From contig JAUIHP010000016.1 in assembly GCA_030431975.1 (NCBI GenBank), forward strand, positions 1 to 64,000: a DNA stretch of 64,000 nucleotides. Reading direction: 5' to 3'. The notes under the pieces were generated by a model. The model had not been told where the DNA came from. It did no database searches and worked only from the letters and a program-made list of their open reading frames with translations. Positions 18,749-22,138 of the stretch are shown here, one piece after another (within the stretch, counting starts at the first letter, position 1; the number at the start of each line of letters is the position of its first letter). The position numbers and the translations under genes are program-made. The stretch is from a bacterium. Lineage in GTDB: Bacteria > Eisenbacteria > RBG-16-71-46 > CAIMUX01.

Positions 18749-18838
18749 GATCGCCGCCGCCGGTGAAGACATGAAGCGACCCATCGTGTACGTTTCCCCC
18801 TTCAAAAGGTGACGAAACGAAGCGAGGGAGATGTTCGG

Positions 18839-21361
18839 ATGCAGGCTTACGAGAAACTCGGCGCATTCTATCTGGGCAAGCGCGTTGAGGCCGAAAGCGG
18901 CAACCTCACCGATGAGTTGCTGCTCTACGATTCCAAGGATCTGACGACCCACGCCCTTTGCGTCGGGATGACTGGAAGCGGCAAGACCGGTCTTTGCGTC
19001 GGACTTCTGGAAGAAGCCGCCATCGATGGTGTTCCCGCGATCGTCATTGATCCCAAGGGAGACCTCGGCAACCTCCTGCTTACGTTTCCGGACTTCAAAC
19101 CGTCGAGCTACGAGCCCTGGATTGATCCGTCGGAAGCGACACGCAAGGGCCTGAGCCCGTCCGATCTCGCCAAGAAGACCGCAGATCTATGGAAGAACGG
19201 ACTGGCGGACTGGGATCAGGACGGTGACCGCATTCGTCGACTCCGCGAGGCGGCGGACTTCAATATCTTCACTCCGGGTAGCCGGGCCGGAGTGCCTCTG
19301 AAAGTGCTCCGATCGTTTCAAGCGCCGCCCGCTGCGCTTCTGAATGACGAAGACGCCTTTCGGGAGCGGATCGCGGGAACGGTGTCGGGGCTTCTTGGAC
19401 TATTGGGCATTGATGCCGATCCGATCCAGAGCCGCGAGCACATCCTCATCTCGAATCTGCTCGACCGTGCCTGGCGGGAAGGGCGGACTCTCGACCTCGC
19501 CGGACTGATTCGCGAGATCCAGAGTCCTCCGTTTCAACGCGTGGGTGTCCTGGACCTCGACGCCATCTTCCCGCCCAAGGATCGTTTCCAGTTGTCGATG
19601 CGGCTGAACAATCTGTTGGCCTCTCCGGGCTTCTCCGTTTGGATGGAGGGAGCTCCGCTGGACATCCCGTCGCTGCTCTACTCGCCGGACGGTCGGCCGC
19701 GGATCTCCATCGTCTCCATCGCGCACCTTTCCGACGAGGAGAGGATGTTCGTCGTCACCCTGCTGCTGAACGAACTCAACGCGTGGATGCGTACGCAACC
19801 GGGAACGTCCAGCCTGCGGGCGCTGCTCTACATGGACGAGATCTTCGGCTACTTCCCGCCGAGCAAGAATCCTCCGTCAAAGACGCCGATGCTGACTCTG
19901 CTCAAGCAGGCGCGCGCCTTCGGCGTGGGTGTTGTGCTTTCGACGCAGAACCCTGTCGACCTCGACTACAAGGGGCTTTCCAACTGCGGTACGTGGTTTC
20001 TGGGACGTCTTCAAACCGAGCGTGACAAGCTGCGCATCCTCGACGGACTGGAGGGCGCTTCGGCTGCGAACGGTCAAACCTTCGATCGATCGACGATGGA
20101 CACGCTTCTTGCAGGGCTGGGGAAGCGGGTCTTCCTCATGAACAACGTCCATGAAGGAGCCCCGATCCTATTCCACACACGCTGGGTTCTGTCGTATCTG
20201 CGTGGGCCGATGACACGCCAGCAGATCACAGAGGTCATGGAGCCGAAGCGGGACGCGTTGTTGCCTCGACCGGCGGGCGGAGCAGCGACGCCCAGCGCGA
20301 CTCAGCTGGCCGCAGCGGTGGCGCCGAACTCCGTCGGTTCTGGAGGTTCGGTCGGCACGGTCGGCTCGGGCGCTCCGGCCCCGCCTACAGCGGCAGCCCA
20401 AAGTTCCGCTCCGCGCCCGATCGTTCCCGACGGAATCGACGAGTCCTTCATTCCCTGGTTCGGCGGGTCCGGCGACGACATCGTTTACCGTCCGCATCTG
20501 CTCGGTCGAGTCAAACTTCACCACGTGAAGTCATCGCTCAACCTGGATGAGTGGTCCGACCAGTTTCTGCTGGCTGCCTTGGACGAAAAGAATATCGATG
20601 ATCCCTGGCCGAAGGCGGAACGGGTTGCACTCGATATCGAGCTGGAATCGGAACCCGCGGAACGAACCCGCTTCGTCCCCTTGCCCGTGGAGGCGGAGCG
20701 GTCCCGCTCTTACAAGTCGTGGGCCAAGGAACTCAAGAACCGGGTCTACCAGACGGAGGCGTTGACGCTCTTTCGCTCGAAGGCGCTCAAGGAGGTTTCG
20801 AAACCCGGAGAGAGCGAAGGGGAGTTCCGTGGCCGACTTGCGCATGCGGCGCACGAACAACGGGACCTGGAGATCGAGAAGCTCCGCCAGAAGTACGAGA
20901 AGAAGCTGACGTCCGTCCAGGACAAGATCCAGAAGGCCGAGCTGCGCGTGGACAAGGAAGAGGACCAGCTGAAGCAGCAGAAGTTTCAGACGGTCGTTTC
21001 CGTCGGCGCAACGGTGTTGGGTGCGCTCTTCGGTCGCAAGCTCACCAGTCGGGGCAACATTGGACGGGCTGCAACCGCAGCGCGAGGTGCCGGGCGCGTT
21101 TCCCGTGAGCAGGGGGACATCGAAAGGGCTCAGGAAAAGCTGGAAGACTTGCACGAAAAGCTTACGGCGCTGGAAGCTGAGTTCGAAGCGGACGCGGAAG
21201 CGTTACGAGAGAAGTTCGATGCAGAGACGATCGAACTGGAGACGGTGGCCGTGCCGCCCCGAAAGTCAGACATCGACGTAGATGTCGTTCTCGTCTGGAC
21301 TCCGTGGCAAACGAAAGCGGGCTCGAAACCCGAACCCGCTTTCCTACTCGATACTGTCTAG
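18839..21361 (+). CDS. HerA/FtsK-superfamily ATPase with C-terminal coiled coil and Gly-rich hairpin
   Basis: This 840-aa protein has a HerA/VirB4-like AAA-type ATPase at its front: Walker A VGMTGSGKTGL near residue 45, IVIDPKGDLGNLLL, and Walker B LLYMDEIFGYFPP near 340, then LLKQARAFGVGVVLSTQNP. Residues about 470-540 are a low-complexity Ala/Gly/Pro/Ser linker. The end is a long coiled coil (LEIEKLRQKYEKKLTSVQDKI... and EKLEDLHEKLTALEAEFEADA) split by VSVGATVLGALFGRKL, a glycine-zipper-like stretch. No nurA lies nearby, so a HerA-NurA end-resection pair is not supported. Proteins of this layout are widespread but unassigned. Start ATG 18839 has GGGAG upstream. Confidence 0.75.
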   Translation: MQAYEKLGAFYLGKRVEAESGNLTDELLLYDSKDLTTHALCVGMTGSGKTGLCVGLLEEAAIDGVPAIVIDPKGDLGNLLLTFPDFKPSSYEPWIDPSEATRKGLSPSDLAKKTADLWKNGLADWDQDGDRIRRLREAADFNIFTPGSRAGVPLKVLRSFQAPPAALLNDEDAFRERIAGTVSGLLGLLGIDADPIQSREHILISNLLDRAWREGRTLDLAGLIREIQSPPFQRVGVLDLDAIFPPKDRFQLSMRLNNLLASPGFSVWMEGAPLDIPSLLYSPDGRPRISIVSIAHLSDEERMFVVTLLLNELNAWMRTQPGTSSLRALLYMDEIFGYFPPSKNPPSKTPMLTLLKQARAFGVGVVLSTQNPVDLDYKGLSNCGTWFLGRLQTERDKLRILDGLEGASAANGQTFDRSTMDTLLAGLGKRVFLMNNVHEGAPILFHTRWVLSYLRGPMTRQQITEVMEPKRDALLPRPAGGAATPSATQLAAAVAPNSVGSGGSVGTVGSGAPAPPTAAAQSSAPRPIVPDGIDESFIPWFGGSGDDIVYRPHLLGRVKLHHVKSSLNLDEWSDQFLLAALDEKNIDDPWPKAERVALDIELESEPAERTRFVPLPVEAERSRSYKSWAKELKNRVYQTEALTLFRSKALKEVSKPGESEGEFRGRLAHAAHEQRDLEIEKLRQKYEKKLTSVQDKIQKAELRVDKEEDQLKQQKFQTVVSVGATVLGALFGRKLTSRGNIGRAATAARGAGRVSREQGDIERAQEKLEDLHEKLTALEAEFEADAEALREKFDAETIELETVAVPPRKSDIDVDVVLVWTPWQTKAGSKPEPAFLLDTV
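21313..21343. terminator. Hairpin between convergent genes
   Basis: Arms gaaagcggg (21313-21321) and cccgctttc (21335-21343) pair perfectly over 9 bp. It lies in the last codons of the HerA-like gene and 38 nt past the stop of the selenothioredoxin gene on the other strand, where it is followed by GTTTGCC. It may end transcription from the minus strand, or from both sides. Confidence 0.55.
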
Positions 21362-21380: not shown

Positions 21381-21788
21381 CTAGATGTTGTTGAGCCTCT
21401 GCAGGACGTCCCGCGAGTCCTGGCTTACGATCTTGCCGTCCTTGTAGAGCCACAGCGTCGGCAGTCTCTGGATGTTGTACTGCTGCGCGACGGCCGAATT
21501 CCAGTTCTTGATGTCGACCTTGCGGAGCGGGATTTGCGTTTCGTTGATCTTCGCCTCCAACTGAGGCTTGAGTTGGCGACAGCCGCCTCACCAATCCGCC
21601 GTGAACTCGACCACGACCAGCCCCGACTTCGGGACCTTGGCGTCGATGTCCACGGACTCACCATGTGAGATGTAGCTGATCAATTCGTTCGACTCGGTTC
21701 CGCTCTCCTTGCCCCCACCGCTGCCGGAACACGCTGCTCCGAATACGATGACGAAGGAGAGCATGCTCAGAAAGAGTAGCCTGCCCAT
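21381..21788 (-). CDS. Selenocysteine-containing thioredoxin-like lipoprotein (UGA at catalytic site)
   Basis: Read through the TGA at 21588-21590, this is one 135-aa frame ending in TAG. It has a lipoprotein signal (FVIVFGAAC), a short Gly/Ser-rich linker, and a complete thioredoxin domain: VVVEFTADW, then U67-G-G-C70, RQLKPQLEA, VDIKNWNSAVAQQYNIQRLPTLWLYKDGKI. The UGA stands exactly where the first active-site cysteine of W-C-G-x-C belongs, and the cis-proline in LPTLW is present. The frame stays open and family-like on both sides of the UGA, so it is not a decayed end. SD AAAGGAG precedes ATG. It should act as a membrane-anchored selenothiol reductant outside the cytoplasm. A gene caller would stop at 66 aa. 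Confidence 0.87.
21553..21567 (-). promoter_or_regulatory. Candidate SECIS hairpin in the selenothioredoxin gene
   Basis: Stem GCCTC/GAGGC (5 bp) with loop AGTTG lies 20 nt past the UGA, inside the coding sequence. G is the second base of the loop, as expected in bacterial SECIS models. The nearby SelW-like gene has almost the same hairpin. An overlapping alternative stem (CCAACT/AGTTGG, 21557-21576) starts 11 nt after the UGA and would exclude it. Confidence 0.6.
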
Positions 21789-21910: not shown

Positions 21911-22138
21911 TCAGCCCTTGAGGGCCGTGAGTTTCTCGAGGATCTCGGAATCTTCCGGGAATCGGCCGACGTCGCCTTTGCTGAAGATCATCTCGCCGTC
22001 GACTTCGACGTCGAAGATGCCTCCGCCGCCTCGGACCAACTCGATTTCAGCGTCGTGCTCTTTTCGAATGGCGGCCTCCAAACTGGAGGCGCGGGGGAGG
22101 TAGTTTCAAACCCCGCAGTACTCGATTCGGATTTTCAT
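21911..22138 (-). CDS. SelW/Rdx-family selenoprotein (C-G-V-U)
   Basis: This 75-aa frame runs from ATG 22136-22138 (SD AAGGAG, 5 nt spacing) through TGA 22106-22108 to a second TGA at 21911-21913. With Sec at residue 11 it reads MKIRIEYC8-G-V-U11-NYLPRASSLEAAI, then IELVRGGGGIFDVEVDG and IFSKGDVGRFPEDSEI. This is the SelW/Rdx pattern: a thioredoxin-like fold with CxxU after the first strand, a G-x-F-E/D-V strand pair and the SK...GRFP motif. Rdx proteins are cytosolic thiol redox proteins of unclear partner. It lies 122 nt upstream of the selenothioredoxin gene on the same strand. Without recoding only 10 residues would be made. Confidence 0.88.
22074..22090 (-). promoter_or_regulatory. Candidate SECIS hairpin in the SelW-like gene
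   Basis: Stem GCCTCC/GGAGGC (6 bp, perfect) with loop AGTTT lies 15 nt past the UGA. The second loop base is G. Stem and loop nearly match the hairpin of the neighbouring selenothioredoxin gene. Confidence 0.65.

Follow-up and report, generated by a model that had tools for sequence, protein, structure and literature searches.

A probable selenocysteine-containing thioredoxin, with a predicted envelope anchor, in a genome of the Eisenbacteria

Introduction

In a stretch of 64,000 nucleotides from a genome of the Eisenbacteria (the window), a reading frame for a thioredoxin-like protein contains a TGA at the codon of the first catalytic cysteine. This begs the question whether the TGA ends the protein, marks a decayed or misread gene, or is read as selenocysteine (Sec). 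A sequence-only reading of the window had favored the last of these, and had described the product as a lipoprotein that standard gene calling would miss.

Selenocysteine in a thioredoxin is not without precedent. Sec-containing thioredoxins (Trx, PF00085) of the UxxC type have been catalogued as experimentally verified (PMC13188914; PMC9312934), and by 2006 they had been reported in Geobacter, Anaeromyxobacter, Carboxydothermus and Treponema denticola (PMC1794560), so that the kind of protein discussed here is not new. Sec-thioredoxin has been described as adapted to high substrate concentrations (PMC13188914). Our literature search found no publication on selenoproteins in Eisenbacteria.

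Results

The thioredoxin gene lies on the minus strand (21381..21788) and comprises 135 codons from ATG to TAG, including one UGA. With TGA translated as U, the frame yields 135 residues, MGRLLFLSMLSFVIVFGAACSGSGGG...VVVEFTADW-U-GGCRQLKPQLEA...QRLPTLWLYKDGKIVSQDSRDVLQRLNNI*, and the start, the TGA and the TAG lie exactly where the sequence-only reading had placed them. The sole in-frame TGA is codon 67 (21590-21588), the first catalytic residue of a W-U-G-G-C active site, and the TAG stop is at 21383-21381. A Shine-Dalgarno-like AAGGAG (21798-21793) precedes the ATG.

The thioredoxin domain is continuous across the UGA (VVVEFTADW-U-GGCRQLKPQLEA ... QRLPTLWLYKDGKIVS). When a cysteine is put at position 67, the Pfam Thioredoxin model (PF00085) matches residues 49-123 with E=2e-18 and 66.7 bits against a cut-off of 23.5, and the match thus crosses codon 67, as had been claimed from the translation. 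The earlier claim that the UGA takes the place of the first catalytic cysteine, with the second cysteine and the cis-proline kept, also holds: in an alignment of 27 homologues, F62, the Sec/Cys position at residue 67, the resolving cysteine Cys70 (codon at 21579..21581) and P110 are invariant. AlphaFold2 predicted a confident thioredoxin fold, with a mean pLDDT of 88 and values of about 98 across residues 41-135. The solved structures nearest to this predicted model are E. coli-type thioredoxins, for which the TM score, normalized to the length of the target, reaches about 0.70.

With respect to its place in the cell, the protein begins with a hydrophobic segment, a predicted signal or anchor (residues 4-18; 21735..21779, minus strand), which is followed by a weak lipobox, GAAC. 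The same kind of segment is found in 16 of the 18 Sec-encoding sequences (the window's and 15 others), 52-70 residues ahead of the active site. A strict lipobox occurs in just two of the Sec sequences (LAGC in L075, LLSC in L081), and no match to it was found in the window protein or in its relatives L025 and L055. Of the original label of a thioredoxin lipoprotein, the N-terminal segment therefore stands, whereas the lipid attachment site does not have the strict motif. Since the lipobox is weak and most relatives have a hydrophobic segment only, we prefer to call the protein envelope-anchored, on the strength of its N-terminal sequence, with a lipoprotein as a possibility. A thioredoxin that carries Sec but stays in the cytosol with an unprocessed N-terminus would agree with the imperfect lipobox of the window protein and with two Sec relatives, L077 and L088, that lack the segment. 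However, all other Sec sequences have the segment, and two of these a strict lipobox as well, which makes a cytosolic location improbable.

The window protein has its nearest relatives in L025/L054 (49% identity) and L055 (50%), each of them likewise with UGA at codon 67. The genome of L055 was not among the 47 genomes listed by the search of the window's phylum and thus belongs to another phylum. When a profile built from the window protein and these relatives was used to search 392 genomes from the phylum to which L055 belongs, members turned up in 23 of them. Together with the window and L025, the profile members make up the 27 sequences considered here, 18 of which carry UGA at codon 67 and nine a cysteine codon (TGC). 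The exchange of UGA for Cys among homologues, which the sequence-only reading had named as a check, is therefore seen, and both halves of the domain, before and after residue 67, align between the UGA and TGC homologues.

In a phylogenetic tree, the 18 Sec sequences and six of the Cys sequences form one clade (support 100/100), within which Sec and Cys members are intermingled, and which is separated, likewise with 100/100, from 31 further Cys thioredoxins. Among the Sec sequences and Cys thioredoxins sampled in this tree, the clade of the window protein is thus distinct from the ordinary thioredoxins that its relatives possess. Of the 47 genomes searched in the window's phylum, only two have the gene. 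Its occurrence in the other phylum is scattered, and transfer between phyla is possible. No relative was found on viral contigs, and the phage matches all had less than 60% identity, with none covering 80% of the query.

Bacterial Sec insertion calls for a hairpin (bSECIS) 16-37 nt after the UGA, with a stem of 4-16 bp, a loop of 3-9 nt with G in one of its first two positions, and a minimum free energy of -7.5 kcal/mol or lower (PMC13188914). Downstream of codon 67, the sequence GCCUC-AGUUG-GAGGC (21553..21567, minus strand) can form such a hairpin. Its AGUUG loop has G in second position, followed by U, and lies 25 nt after the UGA. The stem of 5 bp is short (the SECIS stems of the thioredoxin genes range from 5 to 9 bp), and the energy is borderline, at -6.9 kcal/mol for the bare hairpin and -8.3 kcal/mol with two flanking bases on each side. 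Taking every TGA of the window together, about 6.5% are followed by some hairpin answering to similar rules, so that the hairpin alone is no evidence for Sec; its conservation is.

Most Sec relatives have a hairpin at the matching place, with stems that have changed yet still pair, such as GGUCCUC/GAGGACC (L066), GAUCCUC/GAGGAUC (L070), CCCGC/GCGGG (L077) and GCCUC-AGGUU-GAGGC (L088). The fit is poor in four of the Sec sequences (L072, L073, L075 and L081), and in L025 a competing fold is favored. Across the 18 sequences, a stem of seven pairs is paired in 81.7% of cells, as compared to 75.4% after shuffling and 30-58% when the partner strand is slid. The covariation score was reached in one of 500 shuffles, a count that is not a probability because the sequences are related. 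Codon choice under the hairpin is strongly biased: leucine is encoded by TTG in 12/14 cases (15/182 elsewhere in the same genes) and proline by CCT in 15/18 (10/80 elsewhere). No matching hairpin was seen at this place in the Cys (TGC) homologues. Another possible stem of the window copy, CCAACU/AGUUGG, would put its loop 17 nt past the UGA; it was rejected as a SECIS candidate, since neither of the first two loop bases is G and the relatives do not generally keep it. Rfam SECIS_1 (RF00031) gave no match, but as it gave none in any control genome either, its silence carries no weight.

These observations bear on the possibility that the gene is a pseudogene, or its TGA a sequencing error for TGC or TGT, with the frame beyond it no longer in use. 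One base separates TGA from either cysteine codon, and the product is small, as this explanation would have it. However, UGA is retained at this very codon by 17 further loci from 15 genomes, so that it is neither chance nor a sequencing error, the part after the UGA is as well conserved as the part before it, down to the TAG end, and the hairpin with its biased codons is confined to the copies with UGA. We therefore consider decay or error very unlikely.

Reading the UGA as selenocysteine further requires the Sec machinery, and the four genes that the sequence-only reading had proposed to look for are all present in the source genome (6.19 Mb, 97% complete). SelA scored 493.7 bits (cut-off 267.9), SelB 344 (cut-off 242) and SelD 373, and tRNA-Sec, the product of selC, scored 70.7 bits (cut-off 47) and was called SeC(tca), with anticodon TCA, by ARAGORN. 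The selD gene itself (L018:1477-2526) carries a TGA within its frame (TCAGUASK), after which a hairpin GCUCCGG-AGGAU-CUGGAGC follows, so that SelD is a selenoprotein, too. Among ten relatives examined, selB was above cut-off in nine; in the exception, a 68%-complete genome of the same family as the source (G002), selA, selB and tRNA-Sec were all missing from the search results. For L055, the search of the genome yielded selA but no tRNA-Sec. Matches resembling tRNA-Sec in L057-L060 turned out to be Leu, Ser and Gly tRNAs.

Directly upstream of the thioredoxin gene, on the same strand and separated from it by 122 bases, is a second selenoprotein gene (21911..22138, minus strand). It encodes a SelW/SelT/SelH (Rdx) protein of 75 amino acids with a C-G-V-U motif and scores above the curated cut-offs of both family models (PF10262, 63.6 against 22.6 bits; NF041051, 92.7 against 88). 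It has the CxxU motif and is an ordinary member of this family. Its Sec-UGA is codon 11 (22106..22108), and a SECIS hairpin GCCUCC-AGUUU-GGAGGC (22074..22090, both on the minus strand) has its loop 21 nt after the UGA. All 33 Rdx matches from 32 genomes, the window's included, have an in-frame TGA, counted anywhere in the frame. No Rdx gene was found next to the thioredoxin in related loci, and the pairing in the window is therefore not a conserved operon. Scanning the window for other frames with a UGA and a hairpin gave 16 candidates, with redox-like translations only for the thioredoxin and the Rdx gene.

The frame open beyond the UGA would also be expected if UGA were a sense codon in this organism (e.g., for Trp or Gly) or termination were leaky, without any Sec. 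However, TGA also serves as a stop codon here (as in the Rdx gene, at 21913-21911), the full Sec machinery is present, and the internal UGAs fall on redox positions where homologues have Cys, with a SECIS after them, which leaves this explanation with next to no probability.

On the other side of the thioredoxin gene, a terminator-like hairpin (21318..21332, minus strand) was noted 3' of the stop, by consensus match only. A convergent gene for a protein of 850 residues with a P-loop (GMTGSGKT), likely an ATPase (18809-21361, plus strand), ends some 20 bases away from the stop codon of the thioredoxin gene.

Discussion

The thioredoxin gene very probably encodes a selenoprotein in which UGA-67 is read as Sec by way of tRNA-Sec, SelB and the hairpin, and whose product is predicted from its N-terminus to be exported and held at the envelope. 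The Sec reading first proposed from the bare sequence has thus gained support from the machinery of the genome, the UGA/Cys homologues, the SECIS and the adjoining SelW-type selenoprotein. That automatic annotation misses the gene, as was also held, is plausible.

In terms of mechanism, the hairpin, 25 nt past the UGA of codon 67, would recruit tRNA-Sec and SelB, and these would decode the UGA as Sec during translation. The product would then be exported and probably remain attached to the cell envelope through its N-terminal hydrophobic segment, where, by analogy with the thioredoxin family, the U-x-x-C pair may exchange thiols and disulfides (selenenylsulfides) on the membrane's outer face. 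Following the same analogy, Sec67 would attack the disulfide of a substrate, the protein acting in the direction of a reductase, and Cys70 would resolve the mixed selenenylsulfide.

The window protein resembles the published Sec-thioredoxins in its thioredoxin domain, in the Sec that takes the place of the first catalytic Cys and in the resolving Cys that is kept. Traits that may set it apart, when the two are compared by description, are the N-terminal anchor and a signature W-x-S-P-V-A-x-Q, which in the anchored Sec-thioredoxin stands ahead of the cis-Pro loop. Its best NCBIfam match is the thioredoxin equivalog TIGR01068 (residues 51-123), at 58.1 bits and thus below the family cut-off of 96.8. 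Of the NCBIfam models with selenoprotein in their names, just one matches it at all, NF045694 (TsoB, a rhodanese/DsbD fusion-like selenoprotein), with 17.1 bits against a cut-off of 805, TsoB being a much larger protein. For the thioredoxin and the anchored, mostly Sec-containing clade, no matching NCBIfam selenoprotein model reaches its cut-off.

It is conceivable, with the chances slightly against it, that the clade is an undescribed envelope-anchored subfamily, in which Sec is usual (18 of the 24 members identified) and Cys exceptional, whose SECIS lies in the codons for Pro-Gln-Leu-Glu, and which occurs in at least two phyla, possibly having entered the Eisenbacteria by horizontal transfer.

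These results add two adjoining selenoprotein genes to a lineage of bacteria about which little is known, and they reveal a clade of putative envelope thioredoxins, most of which use selenium. Genes of this type tend to appear truncated or missing under standard annotation, such that the count of redox functions in these bacteria is probably too low. Furthermore, the 18 Sec and six Cys members of the clade are a natural set for the question of when Sec is retained and when it gives way to Cys. Two genomes each hold two different Sec-thioredoxins of the clade, G096 (L075 and L089) and G166 (L080 and L088).
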